A DNA stretch of 46,254 nucleotides from a virus, in IMG/VR virus record IMGVR_UViG_3300036761_000155, positions 1-46,254 of that record. One strand, written 5' to 3'. Below, in pieces: positions 16,925 through 46,254 of this stretch. The notes beneath the pieces are model-generated. The model worked only from the letters and a program-made list of their open reading frames with translations, was not told the DNA's origin and searched no databases. Position 1 is the stretch's first letter. The number at the start of each line of letters is the position of its first letter. Made by a program: the position numbers and the translations under genes.

Positions 16925-17311
16925 TCAGTTCTGCACGTACATGCGTTCCTTGCCGACTTTCACCGCTGGGTAGTACTCAGCCGTACTGCCTTTCGTCTCG
17001 GTGACAGTCACGCAGTTCACCTGCGCCCGCGTCGAGCTTATGACTTCGCTCACAGCGGCAGCAATGTAGCAGGCAATGCGTTCGGCGGTCGGCTGTTTCA
17101 ACGTGTCGTTCAACGTCTTGTGGTCGAGCCCACGTACCACGTCACGCAGCAGCGCAAAGTCCACGACCATGCCGTGTGCGTCGAGGGCGTCTGCTACCAC
17201 TGAGATTTCTACTTTCCAGTTGTGTCCGTGCATGCGTGCGCACGGTGAATCACCGGGCAAGGTCAACTGGTGCGCCGCTGCAATACGAGTTTTCATTACT
17301 ACTCGGTACAT
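16925..17311 (-). CDS. queD: 6-carboxy-5,6,7,8-tetrahydropterin synthase
   Basis: This is a 128-residue protein with ATG at 17311 preceded by AGGAGA. It shows TRIAAAHQL, the catalytic Cys with zinc ligands in SPCARMHGHNWKVEI, the VVDFALLRDVV line with LDHKTLND, PTAERIACYIA and VTVTETKGSTAEY. These are all QueD hallmarks, at the usual length. It acts on dihydroneopterin triphosphate made by FolE. It is the first gene behind the divergent promoter at 17362-17390. Confidence 0.94.
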   Translation of the reverse strand: MYRVVMKTRIAAAHQLTLPGDSPCARMHGHNWKVEISVVADALDAHGMVVDFALLRDVVRGLDHKTLNDTLKQPTAERIACYIAAAVSEVISSTRAQVNCVTVTETKGSTAEYYPAVKVGKERMYVQN

Positions 17312-17361
17312 GTTGTTCTCCTGCTGTCGTTACGCCCGCGATTCATCACGGGCAATGCCCT

Positions 17362-17390
17362 ATTGTACCATGTTGACAATTCCTTGTCAA
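17362..17390 (-). promoter_or_regulatory. Promoter of the deazaguanine operon
   Basis: Minus-strand TTGACA (17385-17390), 17-bp spacer, TACAAT (17362-17367), with TGG before the -10. It lies about 50 bases upstream of queD. Its -35 half is buried in the spacer of the plus-strand promoter at 17373-17401. Confidence 0.8.
17373..17390. promoter_or_regulatory. Inverted repeat shared by two divergent promoters
   Basis: TTGACAA (17373-17379) and TTGTCAA (17384-17390) form a perfect 7-bp inverted repeat with a 4-base centre. Each arm is the -35 box of one promoter and lies inside the spacer of the other, so two polymerases cannot bind together. It could also be an operator for a dimeric regulator. 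Confidence 0.8.
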
Positions 17391-17401
17391 GTTGCTATAA
17401 T
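17373..17401 (+). promoter_or_regulatory. Consensus promoter of plus-strand small RNA C
   Basis: TTGACA (17373-17378), 17-bp spacer, TATAAT (17396-17401), with TGC before the -10 (extended -10). Both hexamers are perfect. It is the only convincing plus-strand promoter seen in the window. Confidence 0.88.
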
Positions 17402-17407
17402 GGAAAT

Positions 17408-17473
17408 CGTTCTCGCAGCTCTCCTGCTGTGGGGGGCTGGCAGGGTCGGTCCACCTGTCCAGCCCTTTTTTTT
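17408..17473 (+). ncRNA. Putative small RNA C, plus strand (about 66 nt)
   Basis: Transcription from the perfect promoter at 17373-17401 should start near 17408 and end at the terminator at 17434-17473. The body is about 25 bases plus the terminator stem, with a CAGC...GCTG-type potential pairing near 17416-17428. No coding frame fits. It is divergent from the queD operon and shares overlapping promoter DNA with it, so activity of the two should be linked. Confidence 0.7.
17434..17473 (+). terminator. Intrinsic terminator of small RNA C
   Basis: GGGCTGG (17434-17440) pairs with CCAGCCC (17459-17465), extended inside by CAGG/CCTG with one bulge, and is followed directly by eight T (17466-17473). 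Orientation is plus strand only. Confidence 0.92.
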
Positions 17474-23035: not shown

Positions 23036-23649
23036 TGCGCCACCTGTGCTACATAGGCCGCATTCTTTTTCGCTTGCCGCTTGTCGAATTCATACAAGCG
23101 GACAACCACGCGCTCATAGTACCTGCGCTGCCTGTAGCTGCTGCCGCCATGGTACCGTCCTACGCGGGCGAGATAATCAATGTCTGTCATGCCTATCGGC
23201 TCGTCGCGCTCGCATACATAATGCAGATACAATGTGCCTAACCGGTCATTGACTTCTGGTTCGGCCAATAGCGCAGGTCTGTTCGCCACTACTATGTATT
23301 CTGTGCCGGTTATCAAATTGAGCTTGTACAGTTGTGCTGCCGCGCTCAATGTGACACCCAGCCTGCCGTATGACTTCCCATCATCATGTACGCCAATGTC
23401 CTTGTTGTGACTTTCGGCCAGTGCTACGCCGAGCTTGGCGCGCTCGAATGACTGCTGCGAAACTGATTTCACTTCTGGTTCTGGATTGTTCGTTGTCATG
23501 GTCTCCTTGTGGGTCATTGAAGGTTCTGGCCACTGCATCGTGGCCGATTGTTTGTTCTCCGTGTTTGCTGTCTCCTTGATATGCGAAACGCCGAGCGTGA
23601 TTGCCACGGCGCAAAGTGCTGCTATCAACATCCAGTGTGCGATTCTCAT
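23032..23649 (-). CDS. Lysozyme-like (SLT-type) exported or anchored protein
   Basis: This is a 205-residue protein. Residues 5-22 form a hydrophobic N-terminal segment (WMLIAALCAVAITLGV) after an Arg, acting as signal or anchor. The domain has VALAESHNKDIGVHDDG, with Glu in the catalytic position, KSYGRLGVTLSAAAQ (S.G..Q.t-like, with Gln replaced), and ARVGRYHGGSSYRQRRYYERV. This matches the soluble lytic transglycosylase layout. It may degrade peptidoglycan for lysis. It is encoded far from the putative holins. Confidence 0.55.
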   Translation of the reverse strand: MRIAHWMLIAALCAVAITLGVSHIKETANTENKQSATMQWPEPSMTHKETMTTNNPEPEVKSVSQQSFERAKLGVALAESHNKDIGVHDDGKSYGRLGVTLSAAAQLYKLNLITGTEYIVVANRPALLAEPEVNDRLGTLYLHYVCERDEPIGMTDIDYLARVGRYHGGSSYRQRRYYERVVVRLYEFDKRQAKKNAAYVAQVAQ

Positions 23650-24179
23650 CGTTGTTCTCCTGTGGGTTGTGTTGTCAGTCGTTTCCTTTGTCGGTACGCC
23701 TTCATGTACGCCTTCTGGTACGCCTTGTACTCGGCGGTCTGTCTGTACGCCTTCCGGTACGCCTTGCGCTCGGCGGTCTGGTGGTACGCCTTGCGCTCGG
23801 CGGTCTGGTTGTACGCCTTCTGGTACGCATTGTACTCGGCGGTCTGTCTGTACGCCTTCTGGTACGCCTTCTTGTACGCCTTGTCCTCGGCGGTCTGTCT
23901 GTACGCCTTCTGGTACGCCTTGCCCTCGGCGGTCTGTCTGTACGCCTTCTGGTACGCCTTGTACTCGGCGGTCTGTCTGTACGCCTTCTGGTATGCCTTC
24001 TGGTACGCCTTGTACTCGGCGGTCTGGTGGTACGCCTTCTGGTACGCCTTGTACTCTTCTGGGTGCGCGTTTACCCGCTGTGATTTCAGTTCTCTTTCCG
24101 ACGGGACTTCCGTGAACAGGCCAGCCATGCGCATGTACGCAAGTTCGTATTCTTCTCTTATCACTCGCTGCCTGTTCAC
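23646..24179 (-). CDS. KAYQ/KAYRQTAE tandem-repeat protein
   Basis: This is a 177-residue protein. After a 40-residue leader (MNRQRVIREEYELAYMRMAG), residues 42-160 are tandem modules of KAYQ (4 residues) and KAYRQTAEY (9 residues), usually joined as 13-residue blocks, with small changes (KAYHQTAER, KAYNQTAE). The tail is basic (YRQRKRLTTQPT). It would form a long, basic, Tyr-rich helix. Similar Tyr/Lys/Gln repeat proteins occur in phages near HNH-type genes, but no HNH motif is present. Nucleic acid binding is a guess. Confidence 0.6.
   Translation of the reverse strand: MNRQRVIREEYELAYMRMAGLFTEVPSERELKSQRVNAHPEEYKAYQKAYHQTAEYKAYQKAYQKAYRQTAEYKAYQKAYRQTAEGKAYQKAYRQTAEDKAYKKAYQKAYRQTAEYNAYQKAYNQTAERKAYHQTAERKAYRKAYRQTAEYKAYQKAYMKAYRQRKRLTTQPTGEQR
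23697..24057. repeat. Modular 12-bp and 27-bp tandem DNA repeats
   Basis: The DNA under the KAYQ protein is built from 12-bp and 27-bp units, often as 39-bp blocks, for about 360 bases. All units are multiples of three, so changes in copy number keep the reading frame. The repeats are nearly identical at nucleotide level, pointing to recent expansion. Confidence 0.85.
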
Positions 24180-29207: not shown

Positions 29208-31064
29208 TTACATGTACACCACGGTCACGTCTTTCGATTCGATGTCCGGGCCTCCCAAGTGGCACGTCGCATACAGGCCTTGCACTCCGTAGGCTTTCAG
29301 CATCACTGACATGGCTGTCAAAAATGGATTGACCGCCTCGTCACTCACTTCCGCTATGTCGTCCATCAGGATAGCCTCCTTTGCGGTGCCCGCTGCCAGC
29401 CGGTGACTGAGTACTGCGCATCCGACTATGTTGCGAACCACAACGCGCTCTGTACCGCCCATGGTATGATACAGCACTGAGCCTGATTCGCGAATGACGC
29501 TGAACCTCATCTTGCCGCCCGTGTATGCAAGTTGAAACTCGCCCATATGTTCAAGTGATGTCGTGGTAGCCTTGATCTTCGTCAACGTCTGATTGCAGGC
29601 GGTTATGAATGGCAATGTCGCCGACTGCACCAACTCTGCCCACACACAGTCAAGAGCCTCCGATACTGCCGTCATAACGGCGCGCTTCTTCTTCTGGGTA
29701 CCGGCCACCGCCCGGCACTGCTCTAACCGCGTGGTGCGGATTCCGCGCTCGGTTGCGATGTCTAAGTCGGACTTCAGTGTCTTTTCAGCCGCCTCTCGCG
29801 CTCCTTCTTGGCGAGTCAACTCGGTCACGTCTGCCGGTTGCCGCGATTCCTTGACCGTCTCCTTGTGTGCAACCACTTTGCCCTGCTCGGTTGCCAGTGC
29901 CTTTTCTGCTGCGAGTAGTTTCCGTTGCGCTGATTTCAACTCACCGCGCACGTTGTCATCCTCGGTCGCGTCGGTGATGATACCGGCGATTGCTTTTTTG
30001 CACTTGGCACAGAGCACGTCGCTGGATTGAACCGCTTTCAATGCCTGCAATCCTTCGGCGGTGACGGCCTGCTCCTTCTTCATCTTGCGCTCGATTGCCG
30101 TCACGGCCTTCTTTGCTTCGACCACTGCGGTTTCGGCCTCGGTGACTTTGTTCTGCTGATCTCCGAGGTCGATTGTCTGCTGCTTTGCCTTCTCGATGAT
30201 TTCTTTCTCGGCCTTGATCTGGTTTCGCAGAGTCAACAGCGCATCGTGATTGCTGTCGTATTCGAGTTTCAATTCGGGCAGTGATCGGGTCGTTGCTCGT
30301 GCTTCCGATTGCCACTTTCCGATGCTCTCGATTTCAGCATTCATCTGTCGCATGGTGCCATAGGCTTCCGTTGATAGCTGCGCTGCCTTCTTACTCCACT
30401 CGCTCAACTGGTAGCACACGTCCGACACCTTCGGTGACGTGAACACGTACTCATTCATGGTCAAGAAGTCGAGCGGTACCACTGCCAGTTCTTCATTCGA
30501 TTGCCGCAGCTTTACGATGGCTGGCGACACCAAATCCGCTGGTAGCGAATCCCATGTGCCTTTTGGCGCGCCGGTTACCTTTTCGAGTACCGCCATGACG
30601 GCCTTTCTCTGTACGTCTTTCACGTCCGTCTCGCACTCTGCGGCCACGACTTTGGCGACGGCCTCGAAGTCGGTCAACGTGCGCGTGTCAAACACGCAGT
30701 CTCCGACAACCCTGTTCATCACGTCTTGAGTCGCCTCAACCGTTTGCGTGTCCGCAGTTGTGAAGGCGTGGGTCATTCGCTGCCTTCCGCTATACGAGCG
30801 GATGAACTCGATGCCGCCTTCTGTGGCGTCGTTCTTGAAGATGCCTTTCACGGACATGTTTTCGGTGCCGATGGCCATGTAGGGCAGTACCCCTGCATTG
30901 CCGCGAGCATCCGATCTGTCCACGCACCCAAGAAGCAAGCGAACCGAATCCAGCACCGAGGTCTTGCCTTTGTTTGCGTGGCCGAGTAGAATCGTGCAGC
31001 CCGAAAGCTCTACTACTCGCGCCACAATGTTCTTCACATTACTGATGGTCAATTTCGTCAACAT
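29208..31064 (-). CDS. Rad50/SbcC-like SMC-family ATPase
   Basis: ATG at 31062-31064 follows AGGAGA, giving 618 residues. Walker A is LLGHANKGKTS (about 27-36). A coiled coil runs from about 240 to 460 and is broken by a CAKC zinc-hook (about 352-355). The signature motif is reduced to MGGTERVVVRN, and Walker B is AILMDDIAEVSD, with Asp where Glu is common. The layout is Rad50-like but short. No Mre11-type nuclease was recognised next to it. It likely acts in recombination or DNA end handling. Confidence 0.8.
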   Translation of the reverse strand: MLTKLTISNVKNIVARVVELSGCTILLGHANKGKTSVLDSVRLLLGCVDRSDARGNAGVLPYMAIGTENMSVKGIFKNDATEGGIEFIRSYSGRQRMTHAFTTADTQTVEATQDVMNRVVGDCVFDTRTLTDFEAVAKVVAAECETDVKDVQRKAVMAVLEKVTGAPKGTWDSLPADLVSPAIVKLRQSNEELAVVPLDFLTMNEYVFTSPKVSDVCYQLSEWSKKAAQLSTEAYGTMRQMNAEIESIGKWQSEARATTRSLPELKLEYDSNHDALLTLRNQIKAEKEIIEKAKQQTIDLGDQQNKVTEAETAVVEAKKAVTAIERKMKKEQAVTAEGLQALKAVQSSDVLCAKCKKAIAGIITDATEDDNVRGELKSAQRKLLAAEKALATEQGKVVAHKETVKESRQPADVTELTRQEGAREAAEKTLKSDLDIATERGIRTTRLEQCRAVAGTQKKKRAVMTAVSEALDCVWAELVQSATLPFITACNQTLTKIKATTTSLEHMGEFQLAYTGGKMRFSVIRESGSVLYHTMGGTERVVVRNIVGCAVLSHRLAAGTAKEAILMDDIAEVSDEAVNPFLTAMSVMLKAYGVQGLYATCHLGGPDIESKDVTVVYM

Positions 31065-31090
31065 ATTGTTCTCCTGCTGTCTGCATGTTA

Positions 31091-35403: not shown

Positions 35404-35594
35404 ATCGACCTCCTGTACGCCTTACGCGTGATGATTGTCCGCTTCTGCTGTGGTACGTCGCGGCCTGTCCGCAACGCTTGTCTGACCGACTGCTTCTCCT
35501 GCTTTGTTATCGCTATCATTGTCTCACCTGTGGTGATAGTTATGGTGGCTACAGGCTTCCCTATAAGCCCCTGTTGTGTTGCTTGTGGTGTCAA
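35400..35594 (-). CDS. Small Thr/Ile-rich protein
   Basis: This is a 64-residue protein whose start codon is TTG overlapping the upstream stop as TTGA and whose stop overlaps the DUF932 start as ATGA. It is rich in Thr, Ile, Gln and Arg (PVATITITTGETMIAITKQ). No family is recognised. Tight coupling on both sides is the main support. Confidence 0.5.
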   Translation of the reverse strand: MTPQATQQGLIGKPVATITITTGETMIAITKQEKQSVRQALRTGRDVPQQKRTIITRKAYRRSI

Positions 35595-36496
35595 TACTTG
35601 TACGGTGACCGCTCCCGCTTTATGCCTACCGTACCGTGTCCCTCGGGGCTGACATTCAGACCGCCGTCGTTTGTGCGGATGGTCAATGCGAACTGGTGCA
35701 AGTCCACGTCGATTGTGAATGCCCTACGATCAAGACCCGCGCTCAATTGTATCTCGAATCCGTTCGTGCTTGAATCAACGATCTTGAGAATGCCTAACTC
35801 GTGTAGTATGTTGGCTACGGCGTTTCCCTTGTGCTCGCCCTTATATAGTTCGCGCCTCTTGTCCTTGTAGCCGTTGACCGTCTCCGCAGCCCGTGCCCGC
35901 TGCATCAGGTTCGTATGGTCGAGCGTCACGTACAATTCGCAAGTAGTCTCATCTCCGTCCGTTGACATGAAATCGAAAATGCTTTCGGGATTGTCAACGA
36001 TGCGGGAAATTTTGCAGAACCGGTCGTGGCGTACATTGTGCAGCCTCCGCAGTGCTTCCGACTTTTCGCACGCGGTGGTCTGTGTTGAGCCTGTCGGGAT
36101 GATTGTACCCCTCCAGCACCAAATTGTGCAGCATTCGTTTGTCGTGATACACGTCATATCCAATTCGGTCATTGACTCGGTGATCGTGTCCAACAGCTTA
36201 TTGTACTCTGCCCTGCTACGTTCGCACCGAGCACTGATGGTCTGAATATACGCTTCGTGCGCGGCCTGCTCACGCTTTTTGTTTGTGAGACGCACGTCCT
36301 CGTCATACGCCTGCTGCTCGGCAAGTGCTAACTCCGCAATGCGCTTCTTCTCCTGCATCTTGGCCGCTCTCCGATCGGCCTTCTGTTCTTCCCGTATACG
36401 GAAGATTGTACGCTGTTGCTGGCTGACCGTCTCCATTGGTTCGTGGATGCTGGTGGCTGCTTCCTGCGGTGCTGCGGTCTGTGTGTCTGTCGTCAT
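35591..36496 (-). CDS. Phage protein with N-terminal coiled coil
   Basis: ATG at 36494-36496 has a GGAGA site; the frame upstream runs into the leader and promoter and is not used. The 301-residue product has an Ala/Gln/Glu helix (RTIFRIREEQKADRRAAKM, then KRIAELALAEQQAYDEDVR) for its first 130 residues, then a globular part with CTIWCWRGTIIPTG and FDFMSTDGDETTCELYV. No family is recognised. It is the first gene after promoter 36582-36610. Confidence 0.5.
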   Translation of the reverse strand: MTTDTQTAAPQEAATSIHEPMETVSQQQRTIFRIREEQKADRRAAKMQEKKRIAELALAEQQAYDEDVRLTNKKREQAAHEAYIQTISARCERSRAEYNKLLDTITESMTELDMTCITTNECCTIWCWRGTIIPTGSTQTTACEKSEALRRLHNVRHDRFCKISRIVDNPESIFDFMSTDGDETTCELYVTLDHTNLMQRARAAETVNGYKDKRRELYKGEHKGNAVANILHELGILKIVDSSTNGFEIQLSAGLDRRAFTIDVDLHQFALTIRTNDGGLNVSPEGHGTVGIKRERSPYKY

Positions 36497-36625
36497 CGTC
36501 GTTCTCCTGCCCCCTGTGGGGGCCTTGTTATTGCCCCTTGTGGGGCTTTGTGTTTCGGGGCCTATTGGCCTCAACACCACTATTATAGCAACTTGTATAG
36601 TAAATGTCAACTCCTGCCCTTTTTT
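36496..36625 (-). repeat. Duplicated promoter-leader block, copy 1
   Basis: This block and 38618-38745 share the promoter, the first RNA bases (TAGTGGTGTTGAGG), a GGCC-AATA-GGCC hairpin, and two hairpins of the CCCCC-ACA-GGGGG type before the ribosome-binding site. The downstream genes are unrelated. Confidence 0.8.
36582..36610 (-). promoter_or_regulatory. Promoter of the 36.5 kb unit
   Basis: Minus-strand TTGACA (36605-36610), 17-bp spacer, TATAAT (36582-36587), with TGC before the -10. The leader of about 85 bases is highly structured before the start at 36496. Confidence 0.88.
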
Positions 36626-37997: not shown

Positions 37998-38618
37998 TCA
38001 GTCGTTCATTACGATTATCGTGCGCGAGGCGTTCTCATTATTGTATATGGTGGTAATGTCGGTAGCCGCGGCCTGTGTGAACGTCTCAAGAATGTCCTCG
38101 TCTTGATTGACAAGCAGGAAGCGCACCGGCCACGTATTTCGGTCAACTGGGAACCGGATGTCGCTGGCGTCAACTATCACTGCCGTGCCACGGTAGGCAC
38201 CGACCTCAAGAGCCATTGAGTACACGCGAAACGTCTGCGGCTTTGGCGACGCCGCAGTCGGTGTCACTGGTGCCACGTATATCCGCGCATTGGTGCTGTA
38301 CACCTTGAAGTCCGATGCCCATTGAGAATGCGAGCGCGTCGTCTTCAGAAAAACAACCATGTCCGCTGGCTGGTTGCCGCAGTATGCAGCATCCGACTCG
38401 TGAATGTTACCGGCCAGATACTGATCCGCAATGCGCTGGCAAAGGGCTGTGTCGTGTTGCGCGTCCGTTACCATATGCAAGCCGACATTGTACCACCGGC
38501 CTTCACCACGGTGAATGTAGCAGTATAGGTGACCCGCTGGGGCTACCACCACTGCTCTGCGGCTACTGTCACTTGGGATATGCTTTGCTACTGCTGCTGT
38601 CGTTGTCGCTGTTCTCAT
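37998..38618 (-). CDS. Phage protein of unknown function
   Basis: ATG at 38616-38618 follows AAGGAGA, giving 206 residues; the frame upstream is leader DNA. It has HLYCYIHRGEGRWYNVGLHM, RIADQYLAGNIHESDAAYC, and a beta-rich second half (TFRVYSMALEVGAYRGTAV, RFLLVNQDEDILETFTQ). No family is recognised. It is the first gene of the unit driven by promoter 38707-38735. Confidence 0.5.
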   Translation of the reverse strand: MRTATTTAAVAKHIPSDSSRRAVVVAPAGHLYCYIHRGEGRWYNVGLHMVTDAQHDTALCQRIADQYLAGNIHESDAAYCGNQPADMVVFLKTTRSHSQWASDFKVYSTNARIYVAPVTPTAASPKPQTFRVYSMALEVGAYRGTAVIVDASDIRFPVDRNTWPVRFLLVNQDEDILETFTQAAATDITTIYNNENASRTIIVMND

Positions 38619-38745
38619 CTTCGCTCTCCTTCGCCCCCTGTGGGGGCCTTTGTTATCGTCCCCCTGTGGGGACTGGGTTCTGGGGCCTATTGGCCTCAAC
38701 ACCACTATTATAGCAACTTCTATAGCGAATGTCAAGTCTGGCTGA
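38618..38745 (-). repeat. Duplicated promoter-leader block, copy 2
   Basis: Copy of the block at 36496-36625, with near-identical sequence from the promoter through the GGCC-AATA-GGCC element and the CCCCC-ACA-GGGGG hairpins. Differences cluster in loops and spacer, as expected if structure is kept. Confidence 0.8.
38707..38735 (-). promoter_or_regulatory. Promoter of the 38.6 kb unit
   Basis: Minus-strand TTGACA (38730-38735), 17-bp spacer, TATAAT (38707-38712), with TGC before the -10. It lies about 110 bases past the terminator of the late operon. Confidence 0.88.
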
Positions 38746-42015: not shown

Positions 42016-45000
42016 TTACTTTTTTTCGACCACGAGTGAACATGGTCCAAAGGTTATCGTTTTTGCATTGGTAGTGAACTGTCTAACATATATGCCGACA
42101 TGCGTATTCGCATTCATTGGCGTTACACCTTCAATGGCAATCTGCATCGGCGCATTAGGATTCACGAATCGTTTCGAGAATTGCGGTATGTACACGTCGC
42201 CGATGAATACCGCGAGTTCGTAGTCGACCACGCTTGATGAAGTGTCGAGCATGAAATTGCCGGATATTCTATATATGCCTTGTTTCTTTGGTTGCAGTTG
42301 TGCAATGAACTGGTAGGTCGGTACATTCGTAGGCGGGTACATCTGCATCCACGTTTCATCCGCTGGAGTCTTCTCCCATCCTGTATGCGCGTACTCGTGA
42401 AAGTTCGTAAACAAAATCCATACGCCGTTTGCAGGCAATGAATACGTGACACCGTCGGAAAGCATGCCTGTGCGCCATAGGTTAGCGTATACATACAGAT
42501 TGCTAAAGATATGGTACTGGTTCATATCCATGTTGCCTGTCATTGGCAATAAACCATCGCGCCTCAAGTATGTCGAATTCACGAATGGCCGTTCTACTTC
42601 AACAGTGTAGTTCACATTCACCACATCGTTACTGTGTTGCGAACCACTTTCGGGATTGCCTACGTGCAGTGGCGCGAGCTTCCCGGATGCGCTTGACGCC
42701 GCGTTCGTGAACACCGCCATGCCACCGCCGGGCACAATAGCGGACGCTGGATCGTACACATTGGCGATTGAGTATCGAGACACATTGTCCAAGAACACTA
42801 TCGACGGGCCGGTCATCGCAGGCGAATCGGCCAACAGTGTCACCTTGTTCGTGGCCGTGTCGGCGTTTCCTGTTCTTGCCGTGACAGCCTTCGCGTATAG
42901 TGGTGCATAGGTGAATGCAATTGCCGCATCAGGCGCGTAACCATACCCGGTCATAGATAGAAGGTGCAACCCGTCATTGTACCTGTTGACTATGGACACA
43001 ATGCTACCCAGTGTATACATGTCCAAATAAGGGCCTGCGCCCATCAATACCTGATCGGCCTTGAGCCTGACATTCTGATTCATCGTCGGATTCGTAACCA
43101 TCAATCCTCTTGCGAATGACGTTTTCAATTCTATGCTGTTCGTGAGCACATTATAATTCACCGCGCAGAAGCCCTTCTTGTTCTCGATGCCTTCGTCTGC
43201 GTCTGCTACATACAGCCGTGCATATGCACTGCCATATACTTTTCCACTGCCGGTTTTCACGCTCAAGCCTTGACCGTACTTTCCTACTAAGGTCACAGTC
43301 TCCCCCCAGTTGTCCCAGTCAATATACGGGCCGCATCCGAATGTCGCGCCGTCCGTCGTGCCCAGCCATAGATTCATACTCGGGTGCGCTATGTTTGTCA
43401 AGCCTAAGTTCGTGAACCATGCCGTACCGCCGCTGGACAATTTGGAAGCAGTAGCGAGTTGCACTTCGTTTGTCACGCAACGATAGTTCATGAGGCAATC
43501 GCCTTTTCTATTCCATGATCCTTCATCCGCGTCTGCCGCATACACTCTGCACAAGCCTGTATATTCAGTCAAGGTCTTTCCCAGTCCGTTCATGAATATC
43601 AAGCCCATACCTGATCTGCTGGCAATCGAGAAGTTATTGCCCCACACATTGAAGTCCATCCATGACCCGTTGCCTGATGTCGTATACGTGCTGCCCAGTC
43701 GCAAGCTCACCATGTCTTGAGCATAGTTCGTTATCGTGAATGTGCCATCCACACTTTCACCCACTGATGTTATTCTGTTTGACAAATCCGTCTCTACCCA
43801 TGATGCCCGATTCGATTCGGCGACTATCTGGTTCGACAAGCTGCCATCTATCCAAGCCGTGAGATTCGATATAGCAACAATCTGGTTCGATAGACTTCCA
43901 TCTACCCATGCTGTCGTGTTCGATAGTCCGACTACCTGATTCGACAAGCTGGTCTCCACCCATGCGGCCCTGTTCGATTCGGCTACTACCTGATTCGATA
44001 TGCTGCCGTCTACTATCGCGAACGCATTCGATACTGCAATGATCTGATTCGATAAACTTCCGTCCACCCTTGAAAGCATGTTCGACAATGCGACAATTTG
44101 ATTCGATACTGATGTCTCTACCCATGCAGCCCTATTCGATTCTGCCACAACCTGATTCGATATGCTACCGTCCACCCATGATGTCCGGTTCGATAGTGCA
44201 ATTACCTGATTCGATATGCTTGTGTCCACTACCGCCATTGTATTCGACAATGCTGCCAACTGATTCGAGACCGAGCCGATCTGATTCGATAGACTTGTTT
44301 CTACCCACGAGGCACGGTTCGATTCCGATACGATCTGATTCGATATGCTGCCGTCTATCCACGCCATTGTATTCGACAATGCGCTCACCTGATTCGATAC
44401 CGCTACCGTCTGATTCGACAGTGATGCCTCCACCACAGAAGCACGATTGCTTTCAGCGAGTATCTGATTCGAGAGCGAATGCGTAATGCCCGCATAGGTG
44501 CCGGACACCGCCACGATTGTATTCGATAGCGTGCCTTCAGTCCATGATGCTCTGTTCGATTCTATTATCACCATGTTCGATACGCCACCAATAGCAGTCG
44601 TGAACTCGTTCGACAAGAATGTTTCAACCCATGCCGCTCGGTTGCTTTCGGCCACAACCTGATTCGATACGCTGCCGTCTACAAGCGCGCACGTATTTGA
44701 CACCGATACGATCTGGTTCGACATGTATGTCTCCACCCACGAGGCGCGATTGCTTTCGGCCACAACCTGATTCGACAAACTACCGTCAACGAGCGCGCAG
44801 CTATTCGATAGAGCGACTATCTGATTCGACACGTTCGCCTCGACCCATGAAGCGCGGTTGCTTTCCGCTACCACTTGATTCGATATGCTGCCTGATACGA
44901 GCGCGGCACCGTTCGACACGGCAACGATCTGGTTCGACAAGCTCGTCTCCACAGTCGTTGCTCGATTCGATTCAGCCGACGTGCTGGTTGTCGATGCTTG

Positions 45001-45168
45001 TGCAGCCATGTTTGTCAGTGGTGCGAATGCTATTTCATTCGTCGTCCACCGAGACACCATCCTGATCTGCGCGCCGTCAATCTTGCTGCCTTTCTGGATG
45101 TCGTACACACCCGCGAAAGCTGCGCCGACAAGGCTACTGGCCATTAGGCATAAACATAATCCACGCAT
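42016..45168 (-). CDS. Tail fibre with signal peptide and 18-residue coil repeats
   Basis: The frame begins at 45210, but GGGGAGGA lies just before ATG 45166-45168, so the 1050-residue form is chosen. It starts MRGLCLCLMASSLVGAAFA, a signal peptide cut before GVY. About 22 repeats of 18 residues follow (form SNQVVAESNRASWVETSL), with two 25-residue variants, making a coiled-coil shaft to about residue 480. Then come two duplicated beta domains (VYAADADEG and LYVADADEG), a fibre motif (LLPMTGNMDMNQYHIFSNL) and a C-terminal jelly-roll-like tip (YRISGNFMLDTSSSVVDYE). It binds the host surface. Confidence 0.8.
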   Translation of the reverse strand: MRGLCLCLMASSLVGAAFAGVYDIQKGSKIDGAQIRMVSRWTTNEIAFAPLTNMAAQASTTSTSAESNRATTVETSLSNQIVAVSNGAALVSGSISNQVVAESNRASWVEANVSNQIVALSNSCALVDGSLSNQVVAESNRASWVETYMSNQIVSVSNTCALVDGSVSNQVVAESNRAAWVETFLSNEFTTAIGGVSNMVIIESNRASWTEGTLSNTIVAVSGTYAGITHSLSNQILAESNRASVVEASLSNQTVAVSNQVSALSNTMAWIDGSISNQIVSESNRASWVETSLSNQIGSVSNQLAALSNTMAVVDTSISNQVIALSNRTSWVDGSISNQVVAESNRAAWVETSVSNQIVALSNMLSRVDGSLSNQIIAVSNAFAIVDGSISNQVVAESNRAAWVETSLSNQVVGLSNTTAWVDGSLSNQIVAISNLTAWIDGSLSNQIVAESNRASWVETDLSNRITSVGESVDGTFTITNYAQDMVSLRLGSTYTTSGNGSWMDFNVWGNNFSIASRSGMGLIFMNGLGKTLTEYTGLCRVYAADADEGSWNRKGDCLMNYRCVTNEVQLATASKLSSGGTAWFTNLGLTNIAHPSMNLWLGTTDGATFGCGPYIDWDNWGETVTLVGKYGQGLSVKTGSGKVYGSAYARLYVADADEGIENKKGFCAVNYNVLTNSIELKTSFARGLMVTNPTMNQNVRLKADQVLMGAGPYLDMYTLGSIVSIVNRYNDGLHLLSMTGYGYAPDAAIAFTYAPLYAKAVTARTGNADTATNKVTLLADSPAMTGPSIVFLDNVSRYSIANVYDPASAIVPGGGMAVFTNAASSASGKLAPLHVGNPESGSQHSNDVVNVNYTVEVERPFVNSTYLRRDGLLPMTGNMDMNQYHIFSNLYVYANLWRTGMLSDGVTYSLPANGVWILFTNFHEYAHTGWEKTPADETWMQMYPPTNVPTYQFIAQLQPKKQGIYRISGNFMLDTSSSVVDYELAVFIGDVYIPQFSKRFVNPNAPMQIAIEGVTPMNANTHVGIYVRQFTTNAKTITFGPCSLVVEKK
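43760..44975. repeat. 54-bp tandem repeat region in the fibre gene
   Basis: About 22 units of 54 bp encode the 18-residue SN repeats, with two units extended by 21 bp. Individual copies differ, so the region is an old repeat rather than a fresh expansion. Confidence 0.8.
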
Positions 45169-45835
45169 AAACGTCCTCCCCTTCATAAGTTGAACCAACT
45201 TCATTGACATTCCAGCGAATTATCGAGCCCGCTGGTAATGCAATCGAAACTTCTTCCTCCGGGATCATTGTAGTGCCGTCCGTCAATGTCAACACGTTCA
45301 TCGAGGGCACGCCGTCCACGGTCATCTCTACTTCACAATCACTGCCTTCTGGGGCCTTCTTGCTGCCTCCAGCAAGCAATGTAACTACACCGCCGCCCGC
45401 TGGTACTCTGTAGGCCATACTACTCAAGAGTTCGCCCACCACAGGCAACCCTTCCGACATGAAGTATATCGGGTATGGCGCGGTCGCAATCGGCACCACT
45501 GTCTGCGCTGTGTCCGGTTCATCCATGACGTTTACCATGAATGACCCATACTTCGTGATTGAACCATCGGAACATGACCAGAACACATCAAGATACACCA
45601 CGGTCGTTTGTGGTGACATGTACCCTACAGGCACTACAATGGTCACTTCGTTGTTTTCAATAGGTGCCGCTGAAGCGTAAATCTTGCCACCCATTGTACG
45701 CCAGTACATTGAGTACATCACCAACAGAGCATTGTCGGGCTTCACGCCTGCGCCGTCAAGTGCGGATATAACTTCCGTCCACACGCGGCCGCGCGCGGGC
45801 GAGAATGCGCCTGCAATCTGCTGTACGTTTATCAT
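45134..45835 (-). CDS. Virion protein of unknown function
   Basis: This is a 233-residue, beta-rich protein. It opens MINVQQIAGAFSPARGRVW, has TIVVPVGYMSPQTTVVYLD and a repeated acidic loop style, and ends IRWNVNEVGSTYEGEDVYAW. The start overlaps the upstream stop as ATGA, and the fibre start lies within its last 35 bases. The pattern and place suit an upper-baseplate or fibre-attachment protein. No family is recognised. Confidence 0.5.
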   Translation of the reverse strand: MINVQQIAGAFSPARGRVWTEVISALDGAGVKPDNALLVMYSMYWRTMGGKIYASAAPIENNEVTIVVPVGYMSPQTTVVYLDVFWSCSDGSITKYGSFMVNVMDEPDTAQTVVPIATAPYPIYFMSEGLPVVGELLSSMAYRVPAGGGVVTLLAGGSKKAPEGSDCEVEMTVDGVPSMNVLTLTDGTTMIPEEEVSIALPAGSIIRWNVNEVGSTYEGEDVYAWIMFMPNGQ

Positions 45836-46254
45836 GATACGCCTCCGCGTTTACCTGTTTTACGCGCATATGCTGCGCTGGATATTTCAACTCGTTTCGC
45901 GTCAATGAACTCTGAGCTTTGCGTGGTCAATGCCAGTTTCGTGCCTGATATAGAATGAGTCACCGATGCAATGTCGATCACGAGTCCACGCAACTCAGGA
46001 TCGAACACGAGTTCGCATCGGTCTCCGGGCAGTATGTCTGGTCTGTTTGTTCGCAATGGTAGTTCGCCTGCCACTATCGGTACGCTCATCTGTTTGTGCA
46101 GCGAGCGCACTATGTCACCCATTTCATTCGTCAAGTCTTGGTCGCTATCTGTGCCTCCATTTACGATCCCGAAATCTTCATCAATGAAGCCTGCGTCCGC
46201 ATCTATTCCGTAATGGTCATACAACCAGCCTTGTTGACTCAATTCGCTTGTGAA
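45832..46254 (-). CDS. Tail protein, 5' end cut by window edge
   Basis: The frame is open to the right window edge (FTSEL before the TTG at 46242), so the true start is outside. The 140 visible residues include VPIAGELPLRTNRPDILPGD, RCELVFDPELRGLVIDIAS, and SGTKLALTTQSSEFIDAKR. The 'pGd...l..dp...v..v.H.is.......t' line is typical of hub or baseplate proteins in siphophage tails. It precedes the fibre genes. Confidence 0.5.
   Translation of the reverse strand, partial: FTSELSQQGWLYDHYGIDADAGFIDEDFGIVNGGTDSDQDLTNEMGDIVRSLHKQMSVPIVAGELPLRTNRPDILPGDRCELVFDPELRGLVIDIASVTHSISGTKLALTTQSSEFIDAKRVEISSAAYARKTGKRGGVS

Follow-up and report, generated by a model that had tools for sequence, protein, structure and literature searches.

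To our knowledge, few regulatory RNAs have been described in phages beyond the classical temperate models. The c4 RNA is processed out of the same transcript as its target, and the sar RNA is encoded beside and against its target region. In bacteria, small RNAs with a C-rich loop complementary to the Shine-Dalgarno sequence (anti-SD loop) include the alphaproteobacterial mmgR/AbcR/cuckoo type, Listeria LhrC and S. aureus RNAIII. The c4 antisense RNA of phages P1 and P7 prevents translation of a phage mRNA through loops that are complementary to its ribosome-binding region (PMC12197685); c4 controls an antirepressor and immunity. The sar RNA of P22 is 68/69 nt long, is its own transcript, and pairs with and represses the ant mRNA; the OOP RNA of lambda is a terminated RNA of 77 nt that runs opposite to the main direction of transcription (PMC12197685). 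A literature search for regulatory RNAs of 7-deazaguanine-type phages found none.

The stretch of DNA analyzed here (the window), a virus record 46,254 bases long, represents only part of a phage genome. A second IMG/VR contig from the same phage (99.9% identical) bridges both window ends via approximately 6 kb of extra sequence. This segment (L101:8657-14676) is absent from the window and runs from its end at 46254 to its start at position 1. It displays big minus-strand frames (831, 336 and 194 aa) and has no strong promoter.

The unit described at positions 17373-17473, a putative small RNA (sRNA) gene, is confirmed, with a promoter, a terminator and a non-coding body. The promoter (17373-17401, plus strand) is of the sigma-70 type, TTGACA-17-TATAAT, with 12 of 12 positions matching, an extended TGC 5′ of the -10 box and a spacer that ends in CAAGTTGC. 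The terminator (17434-17473, plus strand) is intrinsic; its hairpin at 17434-17465 has an 11-bp stem with one bulge and is followed by T8 at 17466-17473. The RNA (17408-17473, plus strand) has a predicted start 7 nt past the -10 box and extends to the end of the T run. The perfect promoter, the terminator with eight T and the 66-nt length given in the preliminary description are all borne out. Perfect promoters number four in the window, where 0.015 per genome is expected from 200 first-order Markov sequences, and there are two units with a promoter plus a strong terminator. The same type of simulation (200 sequences) gives an expectation of 0.01 per genome for promoters of at least 11/12 that have a T6 run no more than 150 nt away.

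The sRNA had also been described as free of open reading frames. The sole frame, of 34 aa, has its ATG at position 17400, i.e. within the -10 box and before the RNA start, and this ATG is missing from the related phage; a protein-coding reading was rejected on these grounds. An attenuator of a plus-strand gene was likewise rejected, as there is no plus-strand gene downstream. The sRNA has, in common with phage trans-acting antisense sRNAs, its own promoter and an intrinsic terminator without a coding frame. The recognizable protein genes of the phage are all on the minus strand. As far as tested, the sRNA is the sole plus-strand unit, i.e. its promoter is the single plus-strand promoter of at least 11/12 in the window and the approximately 6 kb found outside the window on the second contig contributes none. 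Ten of the longer plus-strand frames were searched and show no PHROG match. Rfam 15 at the gathering threshold gives no match in the window (the best sub-threshold match is sX14, 13.9 bits vs. 80), and no tRNA or tmRNA was found.

The predicted fold of the sRNA consists of two hairpins, an anti-SD hairpin (hairpin 1) followed by the terminator hairpin, with an energy z of -4.7 relative to dinucleotide shuffles. Hairpin 1 (17412-17433, plus strand) has 8 bp and a 6-nt anti-SD loop, UCUCCU. The locus is spanned by a contig of a related phage, L098 (17.2 kb), in which all 22 bases of hairpin 1 are identical. The identity extends over a 34-nt block (17408-17441, 34/34) that starts exactly at the predicted RNA start. 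For contrast, identity with L098 is 74% at queD third codon positions, 69% in the terminator stem-loop and 42% past the terminator. All 11 terminator pairs hold in L098, one of them through a compensatory A-U to G-C change. Since local identity with L098 is mosaic, e.g. there is an identical run of 235 nt in queD/queE, the length of the identical run is by itself no proof; the sRNA flanks have however diverged between the two phages. Structure and seed are both conserved, in these two phages only. Taken with the strong promoter and terminator and the absence of a frame, structure and conservation in a second phage give good support to the small RNA gene that had been proposed.

Searches of IMG/VR with three patterns (the exact core, promoter plus core, and a loose promoter plus anti-SD) gave L098 as the sole relative contig. 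A scan of a genome collection found no further relatives and there was no DNA match among 50,697 phage records. No other unit of sRNA-like architecture with a perfect promoter is present among the retrieved loci scanned, and 25-kb parts of Achromobacter phage JWF and Pseudomonas phage Quinobequin-P09 contain no promoter of at least 11/12. A terminase scan aimed at the host gave no match.

The sRNA overlaps no gene; its position is intergenic, between 17311 and 17570. On the minus strand, queD (16925-17311; 6-carboxytetrahydropterin synthase family, PF01242, E 1.4e-26; phrog_2389) is the first gene of the operon divergent from the sRNA. A minus-strand sigma-70 promoter at 17390-17362, TTGACA-17-TACAAT (11/12), should drive queD. 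The preliminary placement of the sRNA as divergent from the 7-deazaguanine operon is correct. Its promoter overlaps that of queD through the -35 boxes, and for this reason the two should exclude each other, with polymerase on one promoter at a time. The palindrome TTGACAATTCCTTGTCAA at 17373-17390 was considered as a repressor operator and rejected; it merely results from the overlap of the two -35 boxes, and in L098 it is imperfect.

The promoter pair itself might be what is under selection. It would then regulate queD by competition, and the RNA would be a by-product whose terminator merely halts stray plus-strand transcription. The overlap of 18 bp and the presence of both promoters in L098 are consistent with this, however hairpin 1, for which such a scheme has no need, is the best kept part (34/34 bases) and the explanation appears improbable. 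A short, strong transcript from an intergenic gap, with a topoisomerase-like gene nearby, would also suit a replication primer RNA or an origin element, but the GC-skew has no turn at 17.4 kb and a repeat scan shows no iterons there, which makes this a very remote prospect.

A cis-acting role has somewhat more in its favor. Transcripts of the upstream minus-strand genes (17809-17570 and beyond) would read into queD with no terminator between them, and there is no minus-strand terminator T run between 17600 and 17300. The RNA is perfectly antisense to such read-through and the convergent geometry is like that of lambda OOP. The RNA could be a boundary element that separates the two gene blocks, either by RNase III cleavage or by a collision block. 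This by itself leaves the anti-SD loop and the match to distant leaders (see below) unexplained, and the terminator loop, which is likewise antisense, is free to vary. We regard a cis-antisense role as possible but doubtful.

Promoters of at least 11/12 number seven in the window vs. 0.25 expected (200 first-order Markov sequences). They fall into two groups by the end of the spacer, CAAGTTGC or GAAGTTGC in the promoters of the sRNA, 36610 and 38735 vs. ...ATGG in those of queD, 7159, 7002 and 6748; the spacer end CAAGTTGC is common to the sRNA, 36610 and 38735 promoters. Among the other strong promoters, the AAGTTGCTATAAT core of the sRNA promoter is present only in front of the genes that start at 36496 and 38618. 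Judging from gene order, the sRNA/36610/38735 group may be early and the ...ATGG group later.

Two promoters of the ...ATGG group belong to further non-coding units on the minus strand. The unit at 7159-7053 has a TTGACA-18-TATAAT promoter; its RNA of about 71 nt (fold z -5.6) has a 5′ hairpin and ends in a 14-bp terminator plus T7. The unit at 7002-6791 has a TTGACA-17-TATTAT promoter and a strongly structured RNA of about 177 nt (z -5.15), which ends in a GC-rich hairpin plus TCTTTT and has no Rfam match. It contains AGCAGGAGAG, which is complementary to the sRNA over 10 nt and has no start codon behind it. Both units are missing in L098 (7126-6751), where the 7159 promoter region joins the 6748 promoter region directly. 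This junction suggests gain or loss of the RNA units through recombination between promoters. Repeat arrays are found within genes, i.e. a 54-nt array at 43757-44937 in a 1064-aa gene (42016-45210, minus strand) and a 12/39-nt array at 23626-24090 in the gene ending at 23646.

Possible targets were sought with RNAduplex, by comparing sRNA positions 17410-17436 with all 45-nt stretches on either strand. Once self matches are set aside, the leaders of 38618 and 36496 are the top two, and both share the sRNA promoter class. These leaders are paralogous and are therefore not two independent hits. The first target predicted is the promoter and structured leader with SD at 36496-36610 (minus strand, TTGACA..CAAGTTGCTATAAT; gene 35591-36496); the second is the promoter and paralogous leader at 38618-38735 (minus strand; gene 37998-38618). 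The corresponding 124-nt promoter-leader modules (36490-36613 and 38615-38738, minus strand) are 74% identical and display three GC hairpins. The genes behind them have no family match, and a search for relatives of the 36496 protein found none. Both predicted main targets are located outside the region covered by the L098 contig.

The predicted pairing spans the 5′ arm of the leader hairpin (CCCCCACAG) and the SD (AGGAGA), and it reaches bases at the start codon. When sRNA positions 17408-17436 are compared with 49 gene starts, the best value is -40.5 kcal/mol, which is matched by 1 of 300 dinucleotide shuffles and by 8 of 300 when the anti-SD core is kept. The 36496 leader and the sRNA antisense strand are co-linear and 27 of 32 positions are identical, with one 4-nt gap and with the SD and start region included. 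The antisense strand looks as if it were derived from an inverted copy of a 36496-type leader. The best alignment score is equaled in 30/2000 and, with the SD core kept, in 146/2000 shuffles; the latter figure shows that the complementarity is partly plain anti-SD. Genome-wide, translation starts account for four (36496, 38618, 31064 and 17311) of the five best distinct sites. The queD ribosome-binding site ACAGCAGGAGA (17317-17327, minus strand; present in L098) is a perfect 11-nt complement of sRNA positions 17420-17430, and the ribosome-binding site of the gene starting at 31064 (31070-31080, minus strand) is a second perfect 11-nt complement.

The order of targets changes once the folding of both partners is counted. 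It becomes 33145, 38618, 37711 ... 31064, 36496, queD, with 38618 second, 36496 eighth and queD ninth of the 49 starts. The specific targets are for this reason best treated as hypothetical, with moderate support for the target set. Target prediction on phage genes, as advised in the preliminary description, did bring out the leaders of 36496 and 38618 in the duplex scan. The suggested role in DNA modification gains a little from the queD ribosome-binding site, however the 36496 and 38618 leaders score better.

The loop resembles the 3′ end of 16S rRNA and fits a general SD sequence. The sRNA could accordingly cut translation of many host messages during takeover, and gene starts as a class do pair better with it than random stretches (median -4.6 vs. 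-1.6 kcal/mol). But phage mRNAs use the same SD, and within the phage the best non-self partners are particular leaders whose pairing is extended and co-linear and which share a promoter. An action on host mRNAs in general is thus unlikely.

The explanation we prefer, and to which we give about an even chance, is that of a co-expressed antisense sRNA that keeps a few phage mRNAs from initiating translation. From the DNA elements, their conservation, the predicted folds and the complementarity we infer its transcription, timing, pairing and blocking action. A host-type sigma-70 promoter would give rise to a 66-nt untranslated RNA in which the 5′ hairpin exposes the anti-SD loop, with the terminator and its U tail behind it. 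The UCUCCU loop would pair with AGGAGA of particular phage mRNAs, and pairing would extend into the flanks (GCUGUGGGGG and GUUCUC, one on each side) across the leader, the ribosome-binding site and the start codon. Initiation of translation would then be blocked. The mRNAs starting at 36496 and 38618 are the likeliest targets, ahead of queD and the 31064 gene as weaker candidates. As the promoters are of the same class, the 36496 and 38618 mRNAs should be made simultaneously with the sRNA. If it works as proposed, this would be a compact example of an RNA, similar to an inverted copy of the leaders of its targets and sharing their promoter, that acts as a feed-forward shut-off.

The sRNA/queD locus may in addition work as a switch where the right-hand gene block meets the queD-to-capsid block. 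In a bolder and rather doubtful version the switch is self-timed, i.e. a single promoter class would fire two operons and, at the queD-to-capsid border, the antisense RNA that stops translation of those operons, while the sRNA promoter keeps the overlapping queD promoter closed. If this is true, one short RNA gene would determine both when one set of genes ends and when another begins.

The sRNA appears to belong to the general kind of phage antisense sRNA, with no Rfam family, and confidence in the target set is moderate. It resembles the bacterial sRNAs with a C-rich anti-SD loop in having a hairpin loop with an anti-SD motif and an intrinsic terminator, but there is no sequence match (Rfam suhB/mmgR, 12.5 bits vs. 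a cutoff of 41). As in c4, a phage antisense RNA is predicted to offer a loop to a ribosome-binding region. Unlike c4, it has its own promoter and terminator; as a plus-strand unit with no downstream plus-strand gene, not cut from the leader of its target, it was rejected as c4-type, and neither ant nor immunity genes were seen. OOP is also a terminated unit against the main direction of transcription, however OOP overlaps the gene it silences, cII, and a cis antisense of the OOP type was rejected since the sRNA has no overlap with a target gene. The sRNA is similar to sar in its size and in being, by prediction, its own transcript, whereas its best predicted targets are 19-21 kb distant. Thus in size and design it resembles c4, sar and OOP.
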